Source: Anaerolineaceae bacterium
GTDB lineage: Bacteria > Chloroflexota > Anaerolineae > Anaerolineales > Anaerolineaceae
Assembly (NCBI GenBank): GCA_016841445.1
Contig: JAENZD010000001.1
Coordinates: 806,001-870,000, forward strand
DNA length: 64,000 nt
Reading direction: 5' to 3'
The position numbers were made by a program, and so were the translations under genes. Positions 5,918 through 63,190 of this stretch are shown here, one piece after another (the stretch's first letter is position 1; every line of letters begins with the position of its first letter). Under the pieces are notes generated by a model. That model saw only the letters and a program-made list of their open reading frames with translations. It did no database searches and was not told where the DNA came from.

Positions 5918-6891
5918 GAATCCTCCTTTTCATTGTGACTTTCTAAGAAACGGTCTACCTCTTGACGGTAGGGGATCGCTGGTAGAGCACCGCGTTTGGT
6001 GGCTGTCAGTGCGCCTGCTGCTGCCGCAAATTGGAGCACTTTTTCAAGGTTCTCTTTATGTAACCCTGTTTCTAAGGAATCAAACTGTAATAATTGATTC
6101 AGCATCGCGCCAACGAAAGCATCTCCACAGCCTATGGAGTCAATCGTTTTGACTTGAAAAGCTGGAACAAAGCCATGATGTCTGTGTGTGAAATAATACG
6201 ATCCTTTGTTGCCAAGGGTGACCAGGCAGCATTGACCGCCAATTTTCAATATTCTTTCACAGCCAGCAATTGGATCTGAAAGCCCCGTGATCAATTTGAG
6301 TTCAATGTCATTCAGCTTGATCACATCGCTTAAGGGAATGATCTCTTTTGCTGCTGATATCGCGATTTCTGTGGCATCCCACATGGTTGGTCGATAATTA
6401 AAATCGAATGAAATAAATCCCCCAGTTTTCCTGACAATTTCAATGGCTTTCAGTGTTGCGGTTTTATAAGAAGGGGATGTGAAACTTACACTATCAATAT
6501 GAAGGGCTTTTGTGTTTTTAAGCAGATCGAGGTTTAGATCTTCTTCAGACAACCGCATATCTGCACCGGGATTTCGGTAAAAGACAAATTCTGCGTGATG
6601 CTCATCAGGCATCCCAATGAAAGTCAAAGATGTTCGGGCTTCACTGTCAAAAACCATGCCTGATGTATTGACATCTTCCCGGTCCAGTACTTCTTTTAAC
6701 CAATCCCCGAATAAATCTCGTCCCACCTTACCGATAAAAGCCGTCTGTGATCCCATCCTTCTTGCTGCAACAGCAACATTAGCAGGCGCACCGCCGGGCT
6801 TAGGTGTAAAAGAAGAGACTTTAACCAGGGGTTTTCCCACTTCTGATGGAAACATATCAACCAAGATGATGCCAAGACAAATGAGATCCAT
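5914..6891 (-). CDS. PfkB-family carbohydrate kinase
   Basis: This 325-residue protein shows both PfkB signatures: the N-terminal glycine-rich region GGAPANVAVAARRMGSQTAFIGKVG and the C-terminal DSIGCGDAFVGAML, where Asp is the catalytic base of the family. Members phosphorylate fructose, ribose, 2-keto-3-deoxygluconate, inosine or related substrates. It is the second gene of the operon, 15 bp after the GntR regulator gene, and probably phosphorylates the sugar imported by the divergent ABC transporter. 5-dehydro-2-deoxygluconokinase-like and fructokinase-like functions are alternatives. Confidence 0.9.
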   Translation of the reverse strand: MDLICLGIILVDMFPSEVGKPLVKVSSFTPKPGGAPANVAVAARRMGSQTAFIGKVGRDLFGDWLKEVLDREDVNTSGMVFDSEARTSLTFIGMPDEHHAEFVFYRNPGADMRLSEEDLNLDLLKNTKALHIDSVSFTSPSYKTATLKAIEIVRKTGGFISFDFNYRPTMWDATEIAISAAKEIIPLSDVIKLNDIELKLITGLSDPIAGCERILKIGGQCCLVTLGNKGSYYFTHRHHGFVPAFQVKTIDSIGCGDAFVGAMLNQLLQFDSLETGLHKENLEKVLQFAAAAGALTATKRGALPAIPYRQEVDRFLESHNEKEDS

Positions 6892-6906
6892 TATTCTCCG
6901 TTGTTA

Positions 6907-7665
6907 TCAACCTTCAAGTTCGTTGTACAGTGTGAATCGATCTCCACGGTAATAAATCTTAAGAAATTCGACAGGAATGTTGCCAGTATAGGTGACGCGT
7001 TCAATGTAAAGCAGGGGAGCCTGTGGAATGACTTCCAGGAATTCAGCAATTTCATTCGATGCCGGAATAGCCTTGATTTTTTGGCGAGCAAAATCCAGCC
7101 GGCTGTTTAGCATTGATTCAATCGCTTTTTTTAATGGATATTTTGAATAATCATAATCCTCAAGGTGTGGGAAGTATTCTTTCACCAGGTAGCTTTCTTC
7201 GATACAAATCGGGAGGTGGTCCCCATGGCGCAGCCTGCGGATACAAACCAGATCTGTGTCAGGTGTTATCCTCAGCTCCTTAGCTTGGGTTTCGGTTGGT
7301 TTCACTGATTCACAAGATAAAACAGTCGTCTCTGGTTTCATCCCCCTGCGGTTCATTTCGTCGGTAAAACTGACGATTTTTTCAAGAGATTGCTGCAATC
7401 CAGGTTTCGCTACGGTTGTCCCTTTACCTCTTTCGCGGATAATAAATCCTTCATCAGAAAGGCGGGTCAGGACTTGACGGGCTGTATTTCTGCTGATTTC
7501 GAACATTTCAATTAACTCGGCTTCAGTGAAGAAACTGTCTCCCGATCCATATTGATCGCTATCCAACAAGCTCCGCATAATTTCATATAGTTGTTGATGA
7601 AGAGGTACACGGCTGTTTCTATCCAAACTTATGGCCGATATTGGTATTTTTGATACGTTTCGCAC
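6907..7665 (-). CDS. GntR-family transcriptional regulator (HutC/UTRA type)
   Basis: I place the start at the GTG at 7665 (252 residues), because AGGAG lies 5 nt upstream; a longer frame reaching 7749 would overlap the promoter. An N-terminal winged helix-turn-helix (PLHQQLYEIMRSLL ... TEAELIEMFEISRNTARQVL) is followed by a UTRA effector domain (SCESVKPTETQAKELRI ... ICIEESYLVKEYF ... PLLYIERVTY). It is the first gene of the minus-strand operon and divergent from the transporter. Two TGTA..TACA dyads at both promoters make it the likely local, autoregulated repressor, released by a sugar phosphate. Confidence 0.9.
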   Translation of the reverse strand: MRNVSKIPISAISLDRNSRVPLHQQLYEIMRSLLDSDQYGSGDSFFTEAELIEMFEISRNTARQVLTRLSDEGFIIRERGKGTTVAKPGLQQSLEKIVSFTDEMNRRGMKPETTVLSCESVKPTETQAKELRITPDTDLVCIRRLRHGDHLPICIEESYLVKEYFPHLEDYDYSKYPLKKAIESMLNSRLDFARQKIKAIPASNEIAEFLEVIPQAPLLYIERVTYTGNIPVEFLKIYYRGDRFTLYNELEG

Positions 7666-8005: not shown

Positions 8006-9019
8006 ATGAAGAAGTATTTAAGAGTTCTTGTAGTTGCAGTTTTGGTTTTATTCCTGTTGGTAGGGTGCGCAAAAACAGCAGAGAGTGAAGAAATCCTGAT
8101 TGCTCACTTGCCAAAAAGCATTGGCGGTGCCTGGTTCACCCGTATGTATGTCGGGTTTGAACGGTATGCTGCCGACCACGAGAATGTAAGTGTTGTTCAA
8201 ATTGGTGCCTCTGAAGGTGATGCCGCTTTGCAGAATGCTGCAATTGAAGACTTCATCACCCAGGCCCAGGGCAAAAAAGCCGGTTTAGCAATCACCTACG
8301 TTTCCCCAGAGGCAACTGAACAGACCTTGAAAAAGGCCATGGACGCTGGGATTGTCGTGATTGGTAATGAGGCTCCAGCAGCGGTCAATGTTGATTACGA
8401 CATCGAAGCATTTGATATTCCATCTTGGGGTGCATCAGTTGCTGATGATATGGCAGAAGGTATGGGCGGGGAAGGCCAGTACTTGATCATGGTTGGTAAA
8501 CTTTCTTCCGCAGCCCACATGGCTTGGGCAGGGGCTCTGCAGTCTAATCTGACAGAAAAATATCCTAATATTACGCTTGTCCAGGATCCATATCCAGAAG
8601 GAAACTATGATCAGCAGGCTTCATATGAGAAGATGATGGAGCTCCTCAAAACATATCCTGATCTAAAGGGCGTTTTCTGCACCTCCGCCACCGATTCCGC
8701 TGGTATTGCCCGTGCAATTGATGATTCCGGTGTGCAGGATCAAACCTTCTTCATCACATTCGGAACACCTGATCTGTATGTTGACTTCCTCAAGAGCGGC
8801 GCCACCGATATCGTCACAGGATGGGATCCTTCGATGATGGGTGAGGCAATGGTTAATATGATTGTTAAAATCCTTAACGGCGAAGAGATCAAGAACGGTG
8901 ATGATCTTGGTGCATTCGGTTTTGACAGCGTGATTGTGGAAGGTAAGCTTGTCAAGGGAAACACCTGGCAGCGAATCACTGTTGAAAATGTTGATGAAAT
9001 TCTTGAGAGAGACTATTAA
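8006..9019 (+). CDS. Sugar ABC transporter substrate-binding lipoprotein (CUT2 type)
   Basis: The 337-residue protein begins with a lipoprotein signal peptide ending in LLVGC, with Cys21 as the lipidation site, and continues as a type I periplasmic binding fold (ILIAHLPKSIGGAWFTRMY ... VVQIGASEGDAALQNAAIEDFITQ). GGAGG precedes the ATG. It is the first gene of a four-gene transporter operon and would capture the sugar outside the membrane. Unlike the two other binding proteins in the window, it has no long acidic linker between the lipid anchor and the binding domain. Confidence 0.92.
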   Translation: MKKYLRVLVVAVLVLFLLVGCAKTAESEEILIAHLPKSIGGAWFTRMYVGFERYAADHENVSVVQIGASEGDAALQNAAIEDFITQAQGKKAGLAITYVSPEATEQTLKKAMDAGIVVIGNEAPAAVNVDYDIEAFDIPSWGASVADDMAEGMGGEGQYLIMVGKLSSAAHMAWAGALQSNLTEKYPNITLVQDPYPEGNYDQQASYEKMMELLKTYPDLKGVFCTSATDSAGIARAIDDSGVQDQTFFITFGTPDLYVDFLKSGATDIVTGWDPSMMGEAMVNMIVKILNGEEIKNGDDLGAFGFDSVIVEGKLVKGNTWQRITVENVDEILERDY

Positions 9020-9041
9020 ACTTTCTTGAAATCTAGTTTGA

Positions 9042-9070
9042 ATATGAGGGTAACTCTGTTACCCTCATAT
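9042..9070 (+). terminator. Intercistronic 12-bp hairpin after the binding-protein gene
   Basis: ATATGAGGGTAA and TTACCCTCATAT form a perfect 12-bp stem with a 5-nt loop, 22 nt after the binding-protein stop codon. There is no long T run. Its place between a binding protein and the ATPase gene is typical of partial terminators or mRNA-stabilising hairpins that raise binding-protein level over membrane components. Confidence 0.65.
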
Positions 9071-9303
9071 GTTTAAATTCAGCAGGAGATATTAGATAAA
9101 TCGATTTTTAGTAAATGTGAGACAAAATTCAGGGCGTTTGATTACTTAAGTCTTCATAATTCAGTATATAATAGGGCGGAATGTGGAATTATTCGGAGCA
9201 TTCATAACTTCAGATATATGCATGACTTATGAAGTGATTTGATAAATTGGTGTAGTAAATAGTTCACCCCTGAAAAACTAAGAAATGAGAAATAACATTA
9301 GCT

Positions 9304-10794
9304 ATGGAAACAAACGTTATTGAACTTAGAGATATTTGTAAATCATTCTATGGTGTACAGGTCCTTAAGAATATTAATTTAGACCTGAAGGTCGGTGAGG
9401 CGTTGTGCATCGCTGGAGAGAACGGCTCAGGTAAAAGCACACTGATAAAGATCATTTCCGGTGCGTATACATATGATTACGGAACGCTGAAAATCAACGG
9501 AAGAGAATATCCAACGATATCACCCAGCCAATCCATCAGTGAAGGGATACAGGTTATCTACCAGGATTTCTCTCTTTTCCCAAACTTAACAGTAGCAGAT
9601 AATATTGGGCTTGGCTACCACCTGCTTGAAGATAAGAAATTGTTTAGTAAACAAGCATGTCGAAAAATAGCTAAGCAAAGCCTCCAGCGAATCGGTGTGG
9701 AGATGGATTTAGAACGGTTGGTTGAGGATATTCCTGTTGCACAAAAACAAATTGTTGCTATTGCAAGGGCGATCATGCAGGACGCAAAAGTCATCATCAT
9801 GGATGAACCGACCACTGCATTGACGCAGAAAGAAATCAACCGGCTGTATGAGATCATCAATAAACTCAAGGAATCGGGAGTTTCAATTATTTTTGTCAGC
9901 CATAAACTAGACGAGATATTTGCGGTTTGTGACCGCATTTTTGTGATCAGAAACGGAAAAGAAGTTGCAAATTACCCCGTAGATCAATTTGAGCGCGGAA
10001 AGTTGTCCTTCTATATGACAGGCAGCGAGGTATACGAAGAGCCATTTGAGCCTGAAGAGATCGGTGAAGAACCAATTTTTGAGGTGAACAGCCTGGCATT
10101 CAAGGATTATTTCAGAGACATTTCATTTGCTATAAAGCGGGGTGAAATTTTATGTATTACCGGCCGGCTTGGTTCTGGAAGAACTGAATTGGCGAAGTCG
10201 CTATTTGGCGTGCTTCCCCTGACAGAAGGAACTGTCACCTTGCGAGGTGAACAAATTAATATCCGGAGTGTACCGGAAGCCATCAAGAACAAAATCGCAT
10301 ATGTCCCGGATGATCGCCTAGCTGAAGGAATATTTTTGGAAGCATCGATTAAAAACAATCTTGTTTCCGTGGTTCTAAACGATATCGCGTCAAAAATCGG
10401 ATTTCTTAAGGAGAAAACGAAGGACGGACCTGCTAAAGAATGGCAGGAAAAACTAGCGATTCAAGCAAACCTTGAAGATCCGGGGAAAAGCCTTTCGGGT
10501 GGGAACCAGCAGCGGGTTGTTTTAGGAAAATGGCTAGCATCCACGCCTGATGTTTTCGTCATGAATTGTCCCACGGTTGGGGTGGATGTAAAATCAAAAA
10601 GCGAAATTCACATTCTAATCCGGGAATTAGCAAGCCAAAATATCGCCGTGTTGCTGATTTCTGATGATATTGGTGAAATTTTGAATAACTCAAACCGTGT
10701 TATTGTAATGAACGATGGTCGGATCTCCTATGAGGCTGAAACGAAAAATTTAGATTATGACAGCTTGAGTGCGAAGATTACAGAGATCATCTAA
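9304..10794 (+). CDS. Sugar ABC transporter ATP-binding protein, two ABC domains (CUT2)
   Basis: A 496-residue RbsA-like fused ATPase. Domain 1 (about 5-240) has Walker A GENGSGKST, Q-loop YQDFSLFPNL, the family's modified signature VEDIPVAQKQIVAIARA and Walker B VIIMDEPTTALT. Domain 2 (about 255-495) has the usual degenerate Walker A (GRLGSGRTE), a good signature LSGGNQQRV, but its Walker B region reads VFVMNCPTVGVDV, where related proteins have DEPT; the catalytic Asp-Glu pair is lost. It would energise import with the two permeases that follow. About 230 bp separate it from the binding-protein gene. Confidence 0.93.
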   Translation: METNVIELRDICKSFYGVQVLKNINLDLKVGEALCIAGENGSGKSTLIKIISGAYTYDYGTLKINGREYPTISPSQSISEGIQVIYQDFSLFPNLTVADNIGLGYHLLEDKKLFSKQACRKIAKQSLQRIGVEMDLERLVEDIPVAQKQIVAIARAIMQDAKVIIMDEPTTALTQKEINRLYEIINKLKESGVSIIFVSHKLDEIFAVCDRIFVIRNGKEVANYPVDQFERGKLSFYMTGSEVYEEPFEPEEIGEEPIFEVNSLAFKDYFRDISFAIKRGEILCITGRLGSGRTELAKSLFGVLPLTEGTVTLRGEQINIRSVPEAIKNKIAYVPDDRLAEGIFLEASIKNNLVSVVLNDIASKIGFLKEKTKDGPAKEWQEKLAIQANLEDPGKSLSGGNQQRVVLGKWLASTPDVFVMNCPTVGVDVKSKSEIHILIRELASQNIAVLLISDDIGEILNNSNRVIVMNDGRISYEAETKNLDYDSLSAKITEII

Positions 10795-51137: not shown

Positions 51138-52145
51138 ATGTCCGTTCTCAACACTAATATAGAAATAAAGATGGAAGATTTTGAAGCATTGGCAATTTTA
51201 GAATCCAAGGATTTAACTCCATTCAAGCCTGATAGGTTGGATGAGAATCCAGCTGTTGTATATCTCTCAAAATTAAGTAAAAATGGGCGAAGGGTGCAAG
51301 CTGATGCCCTAAACATCATTGCAGATATACTTAGTCCTGAATCGGACTTTTTATCTTTCCCATGGCACAAATTGGAATATCAACACCTGCAGGCTGTTAA
51401 GGCGTTTTTACATGAAAAATACAGCATATCCAGCATTAATCGCATGCTAAGTGCTGCAAGAGAAACTGTTAGGCAGGCTTGGCTATCAAAACAGATTCCA
51501 GCTGAACAGTACCTACGGATAAAACAAGTAGAAAATGTCAAAGGTTCAAGACTTCCAGCGGGTCGTCATATTGCCCACGGAGAAATCAAAGCGATATTAG
51601 ATGTCTGTATAAATGACGAGAGCCCATCTGGGTACAGAGATGCTGCTATCATCGCCTGGATGGTTTCTGGTGGAGGGGCAAGACGGTCAGAAGTTATCGG
51701 AGTCGATTTAGCAGACTATAACCCAGATACTGGTCAAATTAAAATTTTGGGCAAGGGCAATAAGGAGCGCACCAATTATCTGGAAAATGGGGCTTATGAT
51801 GCCATGGCTGACTGGCTTATGGTGAGGGGCGATGCACCAGGCGCATTATTTGTTCCCATTAATAAGGGGGGAACAATGATATTAAGGCGAATGACTAGCC
51901 AAGCAATTTACAATATGCTCAATCACCGCATAGAGCAGGCAGGCATTAAGGATTTCAGCCCTCACGATTTACGCCGAACATTTATCAGTAATATGCTGGA
52001 TGCAGGTGCTGATTTGGCTACAATCTCTAAAATCGTCGGACATGAAGATCTAAAGACAACAGCTGTTTATGATCGAAGACCCGAAATTGCAAAGAAGAGG
52101 GCTACACAATTGCTTTCAGTTCCATATAAAAGAAGGATAGAATAA
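51138..52145 (+). CDS. Tyrosine recombinase / integrase (second)
   Basis: A 335-residue phage-type integrase unrelated in detail to the one at 44375. The core-binding domain is in residues 30-130; catalytic residues visible are Arg183 (ARRSEVIGVDL), Lys206 (ILGKGNKERTNY), His276 and Arg279 (SPHDLRRTF), His302 (VGHEDLKTT) and Tyr311 (VYDRRP). It probably mobilises a different element than the first integrase. The ribosome-binding site is weak. Confidence 0.93.
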   Translation: MSVLNTNIEIKMEDFEALAILESKDLTPFKPDRLDENPAVVYLSKLSKNGRRVQADALNIIADILSPESDFLSFPWHKLEYQHLQAVKAFLHEKYSISSINRMLSAARETVRQAWLSKQIPAEQYLRIKQVENVKGSRLPAGRHIAHGEIKAILDVCINDESPSGYRDAAIIAWMVSGGGARRSEVIGVDLADYNPDTGQIKILGKGNKERTNYLENGAYDAMADWLMVRGDAPGALFVPINKGGTMILRRMTSQAIYNMLNHRIEQAGIKDFSPHDLRRTFISNMLDAGADLATISKIVGHEDLKTTAVYDRRPEIAKKRATQLLSVPYKRRIE

Positions 52146-53283: not shown

Positions 53284-54185
53284 ATGGCAAATGGCACCGG
53301 TTCAAACCTGGGTTTTGAAGAACGGCTCTGGACAGCCGCCGACAAGCTGCGCGGCACGATGGACGCCTCCGAGTACAAGCACGTCGTTCTGGGTCTGATC
53401 TTCCTCAAATATATCTCAGACACCTTCGAAGAAATCAACAACCGGATCCAGCAGCAGGAATACGCTGACAAGGAAGACCGGGACGAATACCTGGCGGAGA
53501 ACGTCTTCTGGGTGCCCCAATCAGCGCGCTGGCCGCACCTGATGAGCAAAGCCAAGGACCCCAAGATCGGCATCATCATCGACGAAGCCATGACGGCCAA
53601 CGAAACCGAGAACCCGCGCCTGAAAAGCGTGCTGCCCAAGGATTACGCCCGTCCCGCGCTGGATAAGTTCTGCCTGGGGCAGCTGATCGACCTGGTCTCG
53701 ACCATCGGGCTGGGGGACGCCGAAAGCCGCGCCAAGGATATCTTTGTCAGGGTCTATGAGTATTTCCTAGGCAAATTCGCCACCTCGGAAGGCAAGGGCG
53801 GCGGCGAGTTCCACACCCCGCAGTGCATGGTGCGCCTGCTGGTGGAGATGCTGGAACCCTACGCCGGCCGGGTATATGACCCCTGCTGCGGCAGCGGCGG
53901 CATGTTCGTGTAAGCCAAAAAGTTCGTCCTGGCGAACGCCTCCGGTAACGGCAACGGCGGTAAAGCCAAAGCCGATATTTCCATCTACGAGCAGGAATCG
54001 AACTACACCACCTGGACGCTCTGCCAGATGAACCTGGCGATCCGGGGCATTGATGGCGACATCCAGTGGGGGACACCTTCCTGGATGACAAGCACAAGGA
54101 CCTGCACTGCGATTTCCTGCTGGCTAACCCGCCCTTCAACATGGAGGATTGGGGCTTTAGCCGGGTGGAAAACGACGTGCGCTGA
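53284..54185 (+). pseudogene. hsdM: Broken type I modification subunit gene (hsdM), GC-rich
   Basis: The first 209 codons encode an HsdM N-terminal region ([41 protein letters not shown]) and the SAM motif [11 protein letters not shown], then a TAA stop at 53911 where family members usually have Gln (CAA). The frame resumes ([25 protein letters not shown]) until about 54075, where one base is missing; the next frame gives [15 protein letters not shown] and the catalytic NPPF, ending at a TGA at 54183. The base composition is strikingly GC-rich compared with flanks, so the fragment was imported and then decayed. Confidence 0.85.
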
Positions 54186-54411: not shown

Positions 54412-54906
54412 ATTCAAAGCTCCTTTCTTTGTTGATGCGCGCATCAGTAGAGCTTTTGTTCTGTTCTAAGAAGAGGATAGCATAGTGCGGGAGGGCTTGC
54501 AATACGTCAAAAGCGGCAATAGGGGAGCGATTTTATGCCGAAAGCGGCAACAAATCCTCATGATTCAAAATGGTGTATCACCTTTGTGTGCCTGTAAGGG
54601 TTGATTTCTAGGGGCTTTGAAGGAATTTGATTAACACAATAGATATCATGTTTACTCGTAAGATTAGAAAAACCCGATAACTAAATGGACTAAAACTTCT
54701 AGCAATCCCCTACTTGTTTTAATGTATAATCAAACCTAGCTCAAGGATTTGAGGGATTAAGTACCTGACCCCGTACATTGCAGCCCTCCAATGGTGAACC
54801 AAACCATAAATTTGTGTTTGCGTATAAGGGGTGTACAGTGAGTACAACGCTAGATTGAACTGTCAACCGTTGAAATCCCAATCAAAGCCACCAAGGGACG
54901 TTGCCA
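54412..54906. other. About 490 bp upstream of hsdR without recognisable gene
   Basis: Mixed-composition stretch holding the promoters of the truncated minus-strand gene and of the restriction operon. No clear consensus promoter, RNA or repeat was found by eye. Confidence 0.45.
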
Positions 54907-57870
54907 ATGCTGGAATACCAAATTGAAGAGATCTTAGTCAGAAAACTGCAAGACCTTAAATATACCTATCGTCCGGACATTCGAGATAAAAAAGCGCTTG
55001 ATCAGAACTTTCGGGAGAAATTCCAGTCACTCAATCGTGTCAATCTTACCAATACCGAATTCGACCGTTTAAAGGAGGAAATCGTTACACCCGATGTCTT
55101 CATGGCTTCACGAATCCTCCGAGAACAACAACAATTCGAACGTGAAGACGGTACTCCCCTTTTCTACACCCTCGTTAACACCAGGGATTGGTGTAAAAAT
55201 ACATTTGAAGTTGTCAATCAGTTATCTATAAATACTCAATATGGCCACCATCGCTATGATGTCATTTTGCTCATTAACGGTGTCCCTGTCGTTCAGATCG
55301 AGCTGAAAACTCTTGACATCTCACCACGCCGTGCTATGCAGCAAATCGTGAACTATAAAAACGATCCTGGTAATGGCTATTCCAATTCACTTCTCTGCTT
55401 TATGCAGCTCTTCATCGTCAGTAATCAAAACATCACCAAATACTTCACAAATAACAATAATCGCCACTTTAGTTTTGATGCGAATGAACAATTCATTCCA
55501 GTATACCAATTTGCTGATGAAGAGAATAACAAAATATCCGACCTCGACACATTTGCTGAAAAATTCTTGGCTAAGTGCACCTTAGCTGAAATGATCAGTC
55601 ATTACATGGTTATTGTTGCCACAGAACAGAAATTACTTATGATGCGCCCATACCAAATCTATGCGGTGAAGGCCATAGGAAATTGCATTCACCACAACGA
55701 TGGCAACGGCTATATCTGGCACACTACTGGAAGCGGAAAAACCTTAACATCATTCAAAGCCTCTACCCTTCTTAAGGACAATCCCGATATCGAGAAATGT
55801 CTTTTCGTGGTTGATCGCAAAGACCTCGACCGACAAACCCGCGAGGAATTTAACAAATTTCAGGAAGGCTGTGTCGAGGAGAACACCAATACTCATGCCC
55901 TCGTCCAACGCATGCTGTCTAATGATTACGCTGATAAAGTTATCGTTACCACCATTCAAAAACTAGGCTTGGCTCTCGATGACAATAATTCTCGAAACTA
56001 CAAAAAGGTTCTTGAACCTTTAAGCAAAAAGCGTGTTGTTTTCATCTTCGATGAATGTCACCGCTCCCAATTTGGTGAAAACCACAAAGCCATCAAGGAA
56101 TTCTTCCCGAAAGCCCAGCTCTTTGGCTTTACGGGCACGCCCATCTTTGAAGAAAACGCTACCTACCGCCAAATTGAAGGCCAAGAAGCCTCCTACCGCA
56201 CTACCACTGACCTCTTCCAGAAAGAACTCCACGCCTACACAATCACCCACGCAATTGAAGATCAATACGTTTTACGCTTTCACATTGACTACTTCAAACC
56301 CGATAGTGAAGAAGCCCCCGAACCCGGTGAACCGATAAGTAAAGCTGCTATTGTCAAAACTATACTTGACAAGCATGATGCTGCCACAGCCGGTCGCAAG
56401 TTCAACGCTTTACTTGCGACCGCTTCAATCAATGATGCCATTGACTATTATCAAATTATCAAAAAAATGCAGAGTGAAAGACACACTCAAGATGTAAGCT
56501 TCCAGTCGCTTAATATCGCTTGTGTCTTTACTCCTCCTGCGGAAGGAAGTTTGGATATACGTCAGCTCCAGGACGATCTTCCCCAGGAAAAGGCTGATAA
56601 TGCCGTTCAGCCTGAGAGAAAGAAAGCCGCGCTAGCGGCAATCATCGATGGTTACAACACCACTTTTGGCACTAATCATAGTATCGGTGATTTCGATAGC
56701 TATTACAAAGATGTCCAGAAGCGCATCAAAGATCAGCAGTACTCCGACCAGGATTTATCTCACGACCAAAAAATCGACCTCACAATCGTCGTTGATATGC
56801 TCCTCACTGGCTTTGACGCCAAATATCTCAACACTCTTTATGTTGACAAAAAACTCCAATATCATGGCTTGATACAAGCTTTTTCTCGCACCAATCGTAT
56901 TCTCAACAAGTCCAAACCCTATGGCAATATCCTTGATTTCCGACAGCAGCAGGATCAGGTTGATGAAGCTATGGCTCTCTTCTCCGGCGAGAATATCGAA
57001 CGTGCCAAAGAAATCTGGTTGGTCGATCCTGCTCCCATCGTTATCGAGAAATTACAAACCGCAATCAATAATCTCGACATGTTCATGCGTTCTCAAAATC
57101 TCACTTGTGAGCCCTCTGAAGTACTAAATCTCAAGGGTGATGCTGCCCGTAGTTTGTTTATCAACATGTTCAAAGAAATCCAGCATCTCACCACCCAGCT
57201 GGATCAGTACACCGATCTTACTCCGGACAATTTCGCCGCCATCGAAGCACTCATCCCCAGAGATAAACTACAGGCTTTCCGTGGTGTCTATCTCGAAACC
57301 GCCCAACAACTCAAAGACAAGCAGGAAAAGGAGAAGGATAATCCTGATATTCAGCAGCTTGAATTTGATTTTGTGCTCTTCGCCTCCGCCATCATCGACT
57401 ACGACTATATCATGGCCCTAATTGCCAGATATACCCAGGAGCCCGCCGGTAGTAAAGAGAAAATGAGCCGTGAGCAACTCATCGCACTCATTCTCTCCGA
57501 CGCCAAATTCATCGATGAACGGGAAGACATAACCGCTTATATCAACACCCTCCAAAAAGGACAGGGGCTTACGAAAGACCAAGTCCTAGATGGGTATGAA
57601 CGCTTCAAGCAGGAACAATACACGCGGGAATTGACCCAAATTGCAGATGCTCACAGTTTAGAATATGAATCGCTGCTAACCTTCGTTGAAAAAATCCTCC
57701 AACGTATGATCTTCGATGGCGAAAAACTTACCGAATTATTGAAACCCCTAAATCTCAGTTGGAAAGATCGCACCAAGGAAGAACTCGCATTAATGGCTGA
57801 TCTCATTCCGCTCCTCAAGAAACGCTCCCAGGGACGCGAAATCTCTGGACTCCGTGCTTATGAACAATAA
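54907..57870 (+). CDS. hsdR: Type I restriction enzyme, R subunit (HsdR)
   Basis: The start is the ATG at 54907 (987 residues; AAGGGA upstream). The N-terminal PD-(D/E)xK nuclease has Asp118 (RYDVILLING) and Glu132/Lys134 (VQIELKT). The helicase motor follows: Walker A TTGSGKTLTSFKA, VDRKDLDRQTREEF, motif II DECHRSQFG, FTGTPIF and later TIVVDMLLTGFDA and IQAFSRTNRI. It cuts DNA after translocation as part of the complex with HsdM and HsdS. All motifs are intact. It opens the operon hsdR-hsdS-ATPase-hsdM. Confidence 0.95.
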   Translation: MLEYQIEEILVRKLQDLKYTYRPDIRDKKALDQNFREKFQSLNRVNLTNTEFDRLKEEIVTPDVFMASRILREQQQFEREDGTPLFYTLVNTRDWCKNTFEVVNQLSINTQYGHHRYDVILLINGVPVVQIELKTLDISPRRAMQQIVNYKNDPGNGYSNSLLCFMQLFIVSNQNITKYFTNNNNRHFSFDANEQFIPVYQFADEENNKISDLDTFAEKFLAKCTLAEMISHYMVIVATEQKLLMMRPYQIYAVKAIGNCIHHNDGNGYIWHTTGSGKTLTSFKASTLLKDNPDIEKCLFVVDRKDLDRQTREEFNKFQEGCVEENTNTHALVQRMLSNDYADKVIVTTIQKLGLALDDNNSRNYKKVLEPLSKKRVVFIFDECHRSQFGENHKAIKEFFPKAQLFGFTGTPIFEENATYRQIEGQEASYRTTTDLFQKELHAYTITHAIEDQYVLRFHIDYFKPDSEEAPEPGEPISKAAIVKTILDKHDAATAGRKFNALLATASINDAIDYYQIIKKMQSERHTQDVSFQSLNIACVFTPPAEGSLDIRQLQDDLPQEKADNAVQPERKKAALAAIIDGYNTTFGTNHSIGDFDSYYKDVQKRIKDQQYSDQDLSHDQKIDLTIVVDMLLTGFDAKYLNTLYVDKKLQYHGLIQAFSRTNRILNKSKPYGNILDFRQQQDQVDEAMALFSGENIERAKEIWLVDPAPIVIEKLQTAINNLDMFMRSQNLTCEPSEVLNLKGDAARSLFINMFKEIQHLTTQLDQYTDLTPDNFAAIEALIPRDKLQAFRGVYLETAQQLKDKQEKEKDNPDIQQLEFDFVLFASAIIDYDYIMALIARYTQEPAGSKEKMSREQLIALILSDAKFIDEREDITAYINTLQKGQGLTKDQVLDGYERFKQEQYTRELTQIADAHSLEYESLLTFVEKILQRMIFDGEKLTELLKPLNLSWKDRTKEELALMADLIPLLKKRSQGREISGLRAYEQ

Positions 57871-59170
57871 AACTACAACCACTAAATATCAATTAATCCC
57901 CAAACTTCGTTTCCCTGAATTTCGGGATACAGGAGAATGGGATGTTAAAAGATTAGGTAAATTTACGAAGTTAATAAACGAGCGTGCTGGCGAAAATACA
58001 TTCAAGTTAATGAGCGTTACTGCTGGTATTGGACTTGTATCTCAAGAAGAAAAATTTGGGAGAGAAATTGCGGGAAAGTCATATAAGAATTATATTGTTA
58101 TGAGGGAAGGCGACTTTGCATATAACAAAAGTGCCACAAAAGAATATCCTGAAGGGTTCATAGCATTGCTGGAAGGTCAAAGTTCTGGAGCTGTTCCAAA
58201 TAGCATTTTCACATGTTTTCGTATTATTGATAAAGGTGTTAATCGTAACTTTCTTAACCATTTCTTTTTTGCTAATTATCATGGTTTTTGGTTGCGAAAG
58301 TTTATTACAGTTGGAGGAAGGGCTCACGGGGCACTAAGTGTTGATTCCACCGACCTCTTAAAAATGCCGATAGCAATTCCATCACTGGAAGAACAACGGA
58401 AAATCGCCGATTGCCTTACCTCTCTTGACGACCTCATCACCAGAGAAACTCAAAAACTCGAAACACTCGAGGCCTACAAAAAAGGCCTCCTCCAAAACCT
58501 CTTCCCTGCCGAAGGACAAACCATTCCCGCCCTCCGGTTCCCTGAGTTTCAAAATGCTAAGGAATGGGTAAAGGTACCATTTGGAAATCTTATTCAAGTA
58601 TACTCCGGCAAAGGTTTCAAGGCTTCAGAGTACTCCGAGACAGGGATTCGATTACTTCAAATAGAGAATGTTAGTTATGGAAAAATAAAATGGAATGAAA
58701 ATGTAAAGTATCTTCCAGAGAATTATCTTTTTGAATATCCAGAACTATCCTTACATGAAAATGACATTGTCTTAGCCTTGAATCGACCTATAACAAATGG
58801 CGAACTAAAGATTGCCAAACTCAAGAAGAACGATATACCATCAATCCTTTATCAACGAGTTGGTAGAATCGAGAGAATAACCGATTTAATTATTGACAGT
58901 TTTGTGTTTCCTCTATGCCAAAATTTTGTTAAAAGTTTCGTATTGAAACGATCAATTGGCAGCGATCAACCATTCATTTCTTTGAAAGATTTGTATGGGC
59001 AATCAATATCATTTCCATCTCAACATAAAGAACAACAAGAAATTTCTTCTTGTTTCTCTTTTATCGATAGCCAGATAATTATCCAATCCCAAAAGGTCGA
59101 ATCCCTCCAAGCCCACAAAAAGGGGCTCCTCCAACAACTCTTCCCTTCTCCTGAGGAGGATTGGGTATGA
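57860..59170 (+). CDS. hsdS: Type I restriction enzyme, specificity subunit (HsdS)
   Basis: A 436-residue protein from the ATG at 57860, overlapping the hsdR end by 11 bp. It has two target-recognition domains, each closed by a conserved helical spacer: EEQRKIADCLTSLDDLITRE with LEAYKKGLLQNLFP in the middle, and KEQQEISSCFSFIDSQI with LQAHKKGLLQQLFP at the end. Each half starts with a PxLRFPEF segment, so the protein is an internal duplication as usual for HsdS. It sets the two-part DNA recognition sequence. Confidence 0.94.
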   Translation: MNNKTTTTKYQLIPKLRFPEFRDTGEWDVKRLGKFTKLINERAGENTFKLMSVTAGIGLVSQEEKFGREIAGKSYKNYIVMREGDFAYNKSATKEYPEGFIALLEGQSSGAVPNSIFTCFRIIDKGVNRNFLNHFFFANYHGFWLRKFITVGGRAHGALSVDSTDLLKMPIAIPSLEEQRKIADCLTSLDDLITRETQKLETLEAYKKGLLQNLFPAEGQTIPALRFPEFQNAKEWVKVPFGNLIQVYSGKGFKASEYSETGIRLLQIENVSYGKIKWNENVKYLPENYLFEYPELSLHENDIVLALNRPITNGELKIAKLKKNDIPSILYQRVGRIERITDLIIDSFVFPLCQNFVKSFVLKRSIGSDQPFISLKDLYGQSISFPSQHKEQQEISSCFSFIDSQIIIQSQKVESLQAHKKGLLQQLFPSPEEDWV

Positions 59171-60291
59171 CAGATATGAATTTTAACAGCCTGGATGAAT
59201 TGGTGAATCAAATTCGCGATGATTTGGACAATGCGAAACATGTGTTAATTTATGCCTATAATGGTACTGGAAAAACGCGTTTATCGATGGCCTTCAAGGA
59301 AGCAGGTAGACAGGGGGAGACTAGAGATACTCTCTATTTCAATGCTTATACCGAAGATCTTTTTACCTGGGACAATGACCTAGAGGGTGACAGCCAGCGA
59401 GTATTACGGATTAATGAAGAATCCAGGTTCTTTGCAGGAATTCAGGAATTGGAAATGGAAAATCGAATCCGTCCCTTCCTTCACAGATATGCAGACATTG
59501 ATTTCACCATCGATTACGAACAATGGACCATAAATTTTTCCCGTGAAGTTCAGGTAAAAACCGAAGACGATAACCAATTCAAAACAGAAAACATTGATAA
59601 TATTAAGGTCTCCCGTGGCGAGGAGAATATCTTCATCTGGTGTTTCTTCATGGCTATTGTTCAGTTGGCGATTGATGGAGCAGAGGCATATAACTGGGTG
59701 AAATATATATTTATTGATGACCCAATATCTTCTCTCGACGATAATCACGTCATTGCAGTCGCAACTGACCTTGCACAACTACTAAAGCACCAAAGCACTA
59801 TACAAGGGATTGTGTCTTCGCACCACACGCTATTTTTTAATGTCTTATGGAATGAACTTAGGAATAAAAACCAATCAAAGCGGTATTTTTTAGGAAAAAA
59901 TAAAGAGGCCAACAAATACATTCTTCGGGATACTTGCGCTACTCCATACTTTCATCATGTTGCGGTGTTAACTGAGTTATATAAAGCAGGTCAGACGGGA
60001 AAAATTTATTCCTATCACTTTAATATGCTGCGTAGTGTTCTTGAAAAAACTGCCAGTTTTCATGGCTTTCCTAATTTTTCGTCTTGCATAAAGCAAGATA
60101 GTGATGATATAGATGGAATTATCCATACCCGATTAGTCAATTTGCTAAGCCACGGTAATTACTCGCTGTATGAGCCACAGGAACTATTGGAGGAGAACAA
60201 AGACTACTTCAGAAAAATCCTTGGCGATTTTATCGAGCATTACGCGTTTAATCCAGATTTATTCCCTGAAGAAATTGAGGAAATCTCATGA
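59167..60291 (+). CDS. PrrC-like AAA ATPase, putative anticodon nuclease embedded in the type I operon
   Basis: Start at the ATG at 59167 (374 residues), overlapping hsdS by 4 bp, with GAGGAGG upstream. ABC-type ATPase motifs are Walker A YNGTGKTR (31-38), signature SRGEEN (149-154), Walker B IFIDDPISSLD (181-191) and an H-loop SSHH (217-220). The C-terminal part contains Arg289 and Glu293 (MLRSVLEKT) and His329 (LLSHGNY). PrrC tRNA anticodon nuclease has a catalytic Arg-x3-Glu ... His triad with like spacing and is also encoded within a type I operon. It is about PrrC's size. Activity is inferred; a non-toxic ATPase is the alternative. Confidence 0.75.
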   Translation: MTDMNFNSLDELVNQIRDDLDNAKHVLIYAYNGTGKTRLSMAFKEAGRQGETRDTLYFNAYTEDLFTWDNDLEGDSQRVLRINEESRFFAGIQELEMENRIRPFLHRYADIDFTIDYEQWTINFSREVQVKTEDDNQFKTENIDNIKVSRGEENIFIWCFFMAIVQLAIDGAEAYNWVKYIFIDDPISSLDDNHVIAVATDLAQLLKHQSTIQGIVSSHHTLFFNVLWNELRNKNQSKRYFLGKNKEANKYILRDTCATPYFHHVAVLTELYKAGQTGKIYSYHFNMLRSVLEKTASFHGFPNFSSCIKQDSDDIDGIIHTRLVNLLSHGNYSLYEPQELLEENKDYFRKILGDFIEHYAFNPDLFPEEIEEIS

Positions 60292-61919
60292 CCAATCAAG
60301 ATCAAAAACAATTAGGTTCCATCCTTTGGGACATCGCCGATCAGCTCCGCGGCGCCATGAACGCTGATGACTTCCGGGATTATATGCTCTCATTTCTCTT
60401 CCTTCGGTATCTTTCTGACAACTTTGAAGAGGCCGCAAAACGCGAACTTGGCTCTGATTATCCCGACATTTCTTCTTCAATGATAACAGAAGACGAACCC
60501 CGAACTTCCCCCCTCCAATTATGGTATGACGCCAATCCCGATGATGTGGAAACTTTCGAAAACCAAATGCGTCGCAAAGTCCATTATGTCATCAAACCAT
60601 CCTACCTTTGGAGCAACATCGCCGAACTTGCCCGTACTCAGCATACTGATTTATTGAAAACATTGCAGGCGGGTTTCAACTACATCGAAAACGAGTCCTT
60701 TGCGAGCACCTTCCAAGGCTTGTTCTCTGAGATCAATCTGAGCTCTGACAAACTTGGCAAGAACTATACAAACCGCAATACCCGGCTCTGTGGCATCGTT
60801 ACTGCAATTGCAGAAGGGCTGGCGGAATTCTCCACTGACAGTGATACCCTCGGTGATGCCTATGAATACCTCATCGGTCAGTTCGCCGCTGGTTCTGGGA
60901 AAAAAGCTGGTGAGTTCTACACCCCTCAACAAATTTCAACAATTCTCTCAAAAATCGTTACCCTCGATAGCCAGGATCCCACCACGGGCCCCAAAAAACA
61001 GCTCAAGAATGTCCTCGATTTTGCTTGTGGCTCAGGTTCGCTATTGCTCAATGTCCGCAAACAACTTGCCAACGCCAACGGAATTGGCAAGATTTACGGT
61101 CAGGAAAAAAATATCACCACTTTCAACCTCGCTCGGATGAACATGCTTCTCCACGGGGTCAAAGACACCGAGTTTGAAATCTTCCATGGTGACACACTCA
61201 CGAATGATTGGGACATGCTCAAGGAAGCCAATCCCGCCAAAAAGCCATACTTTGATGCTGTTGTCGCAAATCCCCCCTTTAGTTACCGATGGAAACCTAA
61301 TGAAGCCATGGGTGAAGATGTACGTTTCAAGAACTACGGTCTCGCACCGAAATCAGCAGCCGACTTCGCCTTCTTGCTCCATGGTTTTCATTACCTTGCC
61401 AAGGAAGGCACCATGGCCATTATCGTACCGCATGGCGTCCTCTTCCGTGGAGGAAAGGAAAAGGACATCCGTCGTAAACTCTTAGATGATGGCAACATCG
61501 ATACCGTCATCGGGTTGCCTGCCAAATTATTTTATTCCACCGGTATCCCCGTCTGCATCCTTGTTCTCAAAAAATGCAAAAAGTTCGATGATGTCCTGAT
61601 CATCAACGCCAGTGAACAATTCGAGAAGGTTACACGCCAAAACCATCTCACAGACGAGCATATCAAAAAGATAGTTGACGCCTACCAATTTCGTACCGAG
61701 GAAAAGCGCTTCTCCCGGCGTGTTTCCATGGATGAGATTGCCAACGAACACGATTACAACCTCAACATCTCTCGCTATGTCAGCACAGCCCTACCAGAAG
61801 AGAAGATCGATCTCGCTGCAGAACATGCAAACCTCGTTGAACTGGAGAAAAAAATCGAAGAAGCAAAGCAGAAACATAATCAATATTTAGAGGAACTTGG
61901 CCTTCCGCCTTTGCCTTGA
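60288..61919 (+). CDS. hsdM: Type I restriction enzyme, modification subunit (HsdM)
   Basis: A 543-residue DNA adenine methyltransferase. The N-terminal HsdM domain reads SILWDIADQLRGAMNADDFRDY; the SAM site is DFACGSGSLLL (245-250 core) and the catalytic motif NPPF is at 328-331; GLAPKSAADFAFLLHGF and IPVCILVLKK follow. The C-terminus is a coiled coil (LVELEKKIEEAKQKHNQYLEEL) that contacts HsdS. It overlaps the ATPase gene by 4 bp (ATGA). It differs strongly from the broken hsdM at 53284, so the latter is from another system. Confidence 0.95.
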   Translation: MTNQDQKQLGSILWDIADQLRGAMNADDFRDYMLSFLFLRYLSDNFEEAAKRELGSDYPDISSSMITEDEPRTSPLQLWYDANPDDVETFENQMRRKVHYVIKPSYLWSNIAELARTQHTDLLKTLQAGFNYIENESFASTFQGLFSEINLSSDKLGKNYTNRNTRLCGIVTAIAEGLAEFSTDSDTLGDAYEYLIGQFAAGSGKKAGEFYTPQQISTILSKIVTLDSQDPTTGPKKQLKNVLDFACGSGSLLLNVRKQLANANGIGKIYGQEKNITTFNLARMNMLLHGVKDTEFEIFHGDTLTNDWDMLKEANPAKKPYFDAVVANPPFSYRWKPNEAMGEDVRFKNYGLAPKSAADFAFLLHGFHYLAKEGTMAIIVPHGVLFRGGKEKDIRRKLLDDGNIDTVIGLPAKLFYSTGIPVCILVLKKCKKFDDVLIINASEQFEKVTRQNHLTDEHIKKIVDAYQFRTEEKRFSRRVSMDEIANEHDYNLNISRYVSTALPEEKIDLAAEHANLVELEKKIEEAKQKHNQYLEELGLPPLP

Positions 61920-62482: not shown

Positions 62483-63190
62483 ACCCTTTAGGGGGTTGAG
62501 GGCGGAACGCCCGAAACAGAAAACCACCGGCTAAGCCGGTGGAAGCCAAAGGCTTATAGAAAAGAAATCACTCCGGTAAAATGGCAGAAGTTCAAGCCGC
62601 CACAAAACGAGGAGTGATTTCAATGGTAAAGAGTTTAGCACACACGAAGTGGATGTGTAAGTATGACATCGTATTTACGCCGAAATATCGACGGAAGATA
62701 GTTTACAACAAGTACAAAGAGAGAATAGTAGAGATAATAAGGGATCTGTGTAAATGGAAAGGGGTAGAGATTATAGAGGGGACAGCAATGGTGGACCACA
62801 TCCATTTGCTGGTATCAATCCCACCGAAGTACAGTATCTCGAGTATCATGGGGTACCTAAAAGGGAAAAGCGCCCTAATGATATTTGATAGGCATGCGAA
62901 CCTGAAGTACAAGTATGGGAATCGGCATTTCTGGTCTAGAGGATACTACGTAAGCACGGTGGGATTGAATGAAGCGACGATAGCGAAGTATGTAAGAGAG
63001 CAAGAGAAACATGATCAGATGATGGATAAGATCACAACGAAAGAGATAGAAGACCCCTTTAGGGGTAGCTAAGTCATCGTTGCACCAGGCTTGAACAAAG
63101 TGAAAGCAGCACCTTGAGGTGCCGCAAGCAACAGACCCTTATAGGGTCAGGTCAAGCCACCCGCTATGCGGGTGGTCTTGACTTCTGAGA
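62483..63190 (+). mobile_element. IS200/IS605-family insertion element with tnpA only
   Basis: The element contains one Y1-transposase gene and imperfect-palindrome ends typical of this family. The left end has hairpins GGGCG-GAA-CGCCC (62500-62512) and CCACCGGC-TAA-GCCGGTGG (62524-62542); the right end has GACCCTTATAGGGTC (63134-63148) and CCACCCGC-TAT-GCGGGTGG (63157-63175). The left and right subterminal hairpins have equal stem and loop lengths. Exact ends cannot be fixed without related copies. No tnpB is present. Confidence 0.82.
62623..63072 (+). CDS. tnpA: IS200/IS605 transposase TnpA (Y1 HUH)
   Basis: Start at the ATG at 62623 (149 residues), the normal length and beginning (SLAHTKWMCKYDIVFTPKYRRK); the frame extends 14 codons further upstream into the left end. 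The HUH motif is His59-Ile-His61 (VDHIHLLVSIPPK) and the nucleophile is Tyr123 (AKYVREQEKHD). The protein acts on single-stranded DNA by recognising the hairpins at the element ends. All catalytic residues are present, so the copy may be active. Confidence 0.93.
   Translation: MVKSLAHTKWMCKYDIVFTPKYRRKIVYNKYKERIVEIIRDLCKWKGVEIIEGTAMVDHIHLLVSIPPKYSISSIMGYLKGKSALMIFDRHANLKYKYGNRHFWSRGYYVSTVGLNEATIAKYVREQEKHDQMMDKITTKEIEDPFRGS

Follow-up and report, generated by a model that had tools for sequence, protein, structure and literature searches.

The restriction operon and its surroundings

The DNA analysed here (the window) is a stretch of 64,000 nucleotides from an Anaerolineaceae bacterium (contig JAENZD010000001.1, positions 806,001 to 870,000). 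It carries on its forward strand a restriction operon of four genes in the order hsdR-hsdS-X-hsdM, where X is a prrC homologue. The first gene, hsdR (54901..57870, starting at TTG 54901 or ATG 54907), encodes a type IC-like restriction/translocase subunit. A domain search identified EcoR124_C (2.4e-61), HSDR_N (2.5e-32) and a helicase in this protein, which scores 384.3 bits against NCBIfam TIGR00348, above the cut-off of 284.55, and contains a nuclease-type D120...ELK136 motif, the P-loop GSGKT and DECH. The specificity subunit is encoded by hsdS (57854..59170, starting at GTG 57854 or ATG 57860), which overlaps the end of hsdR and was recognised by Methylase_S (9.7e-21) and PADLOC Specificity_I (8.5e-96). 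The last gene, hsdM (60288..61919), encodes the N6-adenine methyltransferase subunit with N6_Mtase (3.9e-106) and HsdM_N (3.7e-23) domains, the motifs FACGSG and NPPF, and a score of 386.5 bits against NCBIfam TIGR00497 (cut-off 242.75). From their sequences all three hsd genes look intact, and by these profiles HsdR and HsdM are type IC-like.

The third gene, X (59167..60291), lies within this type IC locus and encodes a protein of 374 residues with an ABC-type ATPase and a C-terminal predicted anticodon-nuclease domain. Its reading frame is open from TTG 59161, giving a 376-residue form; residue numbers used here refer to the ATG form. An earlier reading of the window made from the sequence alone (the sequence-only reading) had described a four-base coupling of X to both neighbours. 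This was confirmed, with the ATG of X overlapping the hsdS stop as ATGA at 59167-59170 and the X stop overlapping the hsdM ATG, again as ATGA, at 60288-60291.

Directly upstream of the intact operon are the remains of an hsdM from a different type I system (53284-54140, forward strand). This begins with a 209-residue N-terminal piece that runs to a stop; the similarity to HsdM continues beyond this point and changes frame, with 29% identity to the HsdM of the window followed by an NPPF motif. A tyrosine recombinase gene (51138-52145, forward strand; Phage_integrase 8.8e-29) is located further upstream and an IS200-type transposase gene (62581-63072, forward strand; Y1_Tnp 1.3e-38) downstream. 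The bracketing of the restriction operon by a recombinase and a transposase suggests a mobile island.

Assignment of X to the PrrC family

The sequence-only reading had proposed that X is a PrrC-like putative anticodon nuclease, and profile comparison bears this out. X matches the PADLOC PrrC model (PDLC02360) with E=1.4e-135 and 450 bits over residues 5-365 of the 376-residue TTG form, the next-best PADLOC family (4.1e-22) being more than 100 orders of magnitude weaker, and it scores 59.9 bits against Pfam AAA_13 (cut-off 36). The prototype, EcoPrrC of strain CTr5X, was represented by a stand-in, an E. coli plasmid protein annotated as ‘anticodon nuclease’ from an M-S-X-R locus (L091). As a yardstick, this protein matches the PADLOC model at 1.2e-147, and three further members taken from both operon orders match it at 1.7e-143, 2.1e-142 and 3.3e-126, the second of these being an R-S-X-M protein of Klebsiella quasipneumoniae. 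X is 34% identical to the E. coli protein over 349 columns (E=3e-52), and a profile alignment of the two (probability 100, E=7e-54) spans X residues 23-362 of 374. Arg289, Glu293 and His329 of X are aligned with R323, E327 and H359 of the E. coli protein, whose spacing is that of the published E. coli PrrC triad R320-E324-H356 (PMC2610378) shifted by 3. HsdR and HsdM of the window share 33% and 35% identity, respectively, with their counterparts from the same E. coli locus, indicating that the entire systems are related. A closer relative of X was found in K. quasipneumoniae, in a strain other than the isolate 170 discussed below; this protein (L095), again from an R-S-X-M locus, is 60% identical to X and 32% identical to the E. 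coli protein. A search of phage records at E<=1e-5 found no relatives of X.

The RloC proteins are a second group with ABC motifs and a comparable triad, R-x3-E-x36-52-H (PMC2610378), and X might be such a DNA-damage-responsive, zinc-hook nuclease instead of a PrrC. The 35 residues between Glu293 and His329 are in fact closer to the RloC spacing than to the 31 residues of E. coli PrrC. Against this, the 374 residues of X fall within the range reported for PrrC (341-416) and well short of that for RloC (658-897; PMC2610378), there is no CXXC and no long insert in the sequence, and both the PADLOC PrrC match and the alignment with the E. coli protein extend over nearly the whole of X. An RloC identity is therefore extremely improbable, membership of that group being excluded by size and by the absent coiled-coil/zinc-hook insert. 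On sequence grounds X is best described as the prrC orthologue of a clade of R-S-prrC-M loci.

Motifs, conservation and predicted structure

All of the motifs named in the sequence-only reading were found at the places claimed. The Walker A motif GTGKT occupies residues 33-37 (59263..59277), the ABC signature-like SRGEEN residues 149-154 (59611..59628) and the Walker B/D-loop DDPISSLD residues 184-191 (59716..59739), and a linchpin-type His219 is also present; these four features are conserved across the X family. The N-terminal domain of PrrC proteins is described as carrying a ‘PrrC box’ of 15 residues (PMC3014915). A highly conserved block of the same length, YFNAYTEDLFTWDND at residues 57-71 (59335..59379), is probably this box. 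In the C-terminal domain, alignment and conservation place Arg289-x3-Glu293 of the putative catalytic triad at 60031..60045 and His329 at 60151..60153.

Conservation was assessed in 89 X proteins: that of the window, one each from loci L004 to L010, those of 80 loci on genome contigs and a second copy from one of these (L045). The 80 genome-contig loci are the best of at least 573 confirmed relatives and favour the clade of the window; even so, 83 of the 89 proteins are distinct at 90% identity. Arg289, Glu293 and His329 are invariant in 89/89, this sample including the best 80 of at least 573, and a loss of the triad in orthologues, which would have spoken against the sequence-only reading, was thus not seen. 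Within the same sample, G35 and T37 of Walker A are also invariant, as are 8 of the 15 residues of the block at 57-71. Invariant positions make up 34 of the 374 window columns in this set (best 80 of at least 573 included), and only 8 of them lie within the 119 residues 256-374. The triad accounts for three of these eight, for which the hypergeometric chance is 2e-4.

These figures bear on the suggestion that X is a catalytically idle ABC ATPase which solely regulates the restriction enzyme. Many SMC/Rad50-type ABC ATPases are not nucleases, and structural matches to the C-terminal domain are weak (see below). Retention in every one of the 89 proteins (best 80 of at least 573 included) of the three residues that E. 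coli PrrC requires, in a domain where merely 8 of 119 positions are invariant, makes such an idle role very unlikely, and a nuclease is the preferred reading of the C-terminal domain.

Structure predictions were based on alignments that combined the window protein with 71 further X sequences; these were drawn from 70 of the 80 genome-contig loci, with both L045 copies included. The AlphaFold model of X (pLDDT 85.1, pTM 0.71) has an ABC head for which the best match is Rad50 (Z 13.1, rmsd 2.9, 209 aligned). When modelled alone, the C-terminal 120 residues (pLDDT 83.4) are predicted to fold into four main helices, of which the second carries both Arg289 and Glu293 and the third has His329 at its end. 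For this domain alone, Foldseek returned no match at E<=0.001. In a second structural comparison, seven of the nine listed entries with Z>=5 were titled HEPN or AbiV, with Z of 5.0-5.9; the top row was an ESCRT protein at Z 6.2, and scores of this size may be background for helical bundles. PrrC has been placed in the HEPN superfamily (PMC3710099). A predicted fold lacking the nuclease pocket, which would have counted against the sequence-only reading, did not emerge: the domain is helical and has the triad on two helices, although its HEPN-type matches reach only Z 5.0-5.9. The resemblance is weak but consistent, agreeing with the published assignment without proving it. A solved PrrC structure was also sought by sequence: for X itself, nothing above chance level appeared up to E=1, the E. 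coli stand-in gave one weak match (E=0.02) to a ‘Bacterial antiviral defense protein’ fusion, and an eight-sequence profile gave no match at 0.01.

Operon order in the two PrrC groups

Each gene of a locus was assigned from its best BLAST hit among the queries, namely the genes of the window and of Enterococcus and three further HsdS, so that a dissimilar hsd gene would be overlooked. The clade of the window comprises 84 loci (L004, L007-L009 and L011-L090, including the best 80 of at least 573), in 69 of which the order R-S-X-M is complete. The other 15 are cut by a contig end or are missing a recognised gene, yet they fit this order, and among the 84, with the same best 80 of at least 573, no locus contradicts it. 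The second group, here called the classical clade, has M-S-X-R in all of the seven loci by which it was sampled (L005, L006, L010 and L091-L094). As the 80 genome-contig loci were chosen as the closest to the query, the natural frequencies of the two orders cannot be read from these counts. In a tree of the X proteins, rooted at the midpoint for drawing only, the seven classical loci form a group at the end of a long stem (support 100/100), the window pairs with L004 (98/88) and the second X of L045 is on a very long branch.

The sequence-only reading had remarked that R-S-X-M differs from the classical M-S-prrC-R. This is correct, but the order is not unusual, being standard in a large PrrC clade which, among the best 80 of at least 573, is found in Pseudomonadota, Bacillota, Chloroflexota, Cyanobacteriota, Verrucomicrobiota, Planctomycetota and others. 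Nor is it new, because the published PrrC170 system is listed in this order and all 84 surveyed clade loci (best 80 of at least 573 included) fit it; an unprecedented gene order is thereby ruled out. In the lineage of the window the system is rare. It was found in one of 61 genomes of near relatives and in four of 400 across the phylum, the genome of the window being counted in each case, and two of the four (L005 and L006) belong to the classical clade.

Many loci of the R-S-prrC-M type contain additional genes. A gap of more than 400 nt between the four genes was seen in 31 of 81 such loci (L007 and L011-L090, including the best 80 of at least 573), for example in L007, L012, L013, L042, L047, L051, L054 and L062. 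The proteins encoded in the inserts (from the same sample, best 80 of at least 573 included) were clustered, with domains named from one representative per cluster, as RhuM (10 proteins), Bro-N (10), Schlafen AlbA_2 (8), TrlF ATPase (6), a DEAD helicase and a partner without a recognised function (4 each), HEPN_LA2681 (2), YhcG nuclease (2) and GHKL-Ymh (1). The occurrence of RhuM together with PrrC has been described previously (PMC3710099). A TrlF ATPase and a Schlafen AlbA_2-type protein lie between hsdR and hsdS on two Klebsiella plasmids (L007, 1955-5742; L095, 1449-5236), so that the L095 operon has two extra genes beyond the four, and the same pair is present in five genome contigs among the best 80 of at least 573 (L026, L042, L046, L049 and L055). 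In the literature collection that was searched, no paper mentions both TrlF and PrrC. In L045 (Halomonas sp. LH_M4) one operon contains two PrrC-family genes (6193-7266 and 8905-10092) with a HEPN_LA2681 protein between them; the product of the first, the divergent copy, is only 34% identical to X but retains the triad, and its match to the PADLOC PrrC model has E=9.2e-95.

Proposed function and the question of the substrate

The window itself provides the homology, the operon, the motifs, the invariant triad and the predicted ATPase fold. Taken as a whole, these are very probably explained by X being a latent anticodon nuclease that guards a type I restriction enzyme. X would most likely be made together with, and kept silent by, the type IC-like HsdR-HsdS-HsdM of the same operon. 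A phage factor that blocks the restriction enzyme, or an alteration of nucleotide pools by infection, may act as the trigger, upon which binding and hydrolysis of NTP in the Rad50-like ABC head would release the putative HEPN-type RNase at the C-terminus. With Arg289, Glu293 and His329 as its catalytic residues, this RNase would cleave an anticodon loop, most likely that of tRNA-Lys, and translation would stop. Latency, trigger, tRNA target and abortive outcome are carried over here from E. coli PrrC and PrrC170, and X is well supported as an added case of a known kind, its mechanism being transferred by homology.

The choice of tRNA is the part of this proposal for which a different outcome has to be weighed. 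There is evidence that Asp287 of E. coli PrrC contacts the modified wobble base, and changes of this residue alter the response to wobble modification (PMC3014915). Asp287 is absent in X, where Ala258 (59938..59940) is aligned with it, and the preferred tRNA of X may therefore differ. In the 89 X proteins (best 80 of at least 573 included) this column contains D in 53, E in 11, K in 8, S in 6, A in 5 and others in 6. Since the recognition segment of PrrC proteins is variable, and their substrates may vary with it (PMC3014915), the residue was taken here as a trait of specificity and not of family membership. A PrrC-fold nuclease with a drifted recognition segment could accordingly cut a tRNA other than tRNA-Lys, or one with a differently modified wobble base. 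PrrC170, with genes listed as HsdR, HsdS, PrrC and HsdM, nevertheless targets tRNA-Lys (PMC11555353), and the K. quasipneumoniae protein L095, from a strain other than isolate 170, is 60% identical to X. On balance a changed substrate appears rather unlikely, and tRNA-Lys is retained as the probable target.

A similarly tentative idea, and one we consider doubtful, is that within PrrC the R-S-prrC-M clade forms a branch with a function of its own, with a drifting wobble reader, perhaps with diverged tRNA targets, and with an open chassis for extra effectors around a common restriction sensor. If this were true, the effectors would be RhuM, Bro-N, the TrlF-Schlafen pair, the helicase, HEPN and YhcG. 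The window adds a solid further example of a putative suicide tRNase that would guard a restriction enzyme, in a lineage in which this is rare, and the survey reveals that PrrC proteins fall into two groups whose operons run in opposite orders, the R-S-X-M group being spread over many phyla. With its bare four genes, the version in the window offers a clean system from which to learn the cleavage target of the clade.

Comparison with known systems

E. coli PrrC is a latent tRNA-Lys anticodon nuclease that is silenced by the restriction enzyme EcoprrI and freed when T4 Stp blocks EcoprrI, with GTP hydrolysis and dTTP playing roles in this process (PMC2610378; PMC3014915). The window resembles this system in the combination of an ABC ATPase with an anticodon nuclease (predicted in the window), in the triad and in the link to type IC hsd genes. 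It differs in gene order (R-S-X-M against M-S-prrC-R), in protein length (374 against 396 residues) and in having Ala258 in place of the probable wobble contact Asp287, and the E. coli stand-in falls in the separate, fully supported group of the tree. RloC likewise unites an ABC ATPase with a C-terminal R-x3-E...H anticodon nuclease, which in the window is predicted; it is about twice the size, has a Rad50-like coiled-coil/zinc-hook insert and is seldom found in restriction-modification loci (PMC2610378).

The nearest published counterpart is PrrC170, from the carbapenem-resistant K. quasipneumoniae isolate 170. The clone included 300 nt upstream of the HsdR start, indicating that HsdR comes first (PMC11555353). 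The system is active against T1 and T7, and its PrrC causes growth arrest on overexpression, with tRNA sequencing pointing to tRNA-Lys (PMC11555353). Its PrrC is reported to be 35% identical to EcoPrrC (PMC11555353), compared with 34% between X and the E. coli stand-in, and from this value and the gene list we infer that PrrC170 belongs to the clade of the window. Systems of this kind, and the R-S-X-M order as well, have thus already been published, and whereas the anti-phage activity and target of PrrC170 are experimental, the system in the window is known from its sequence.
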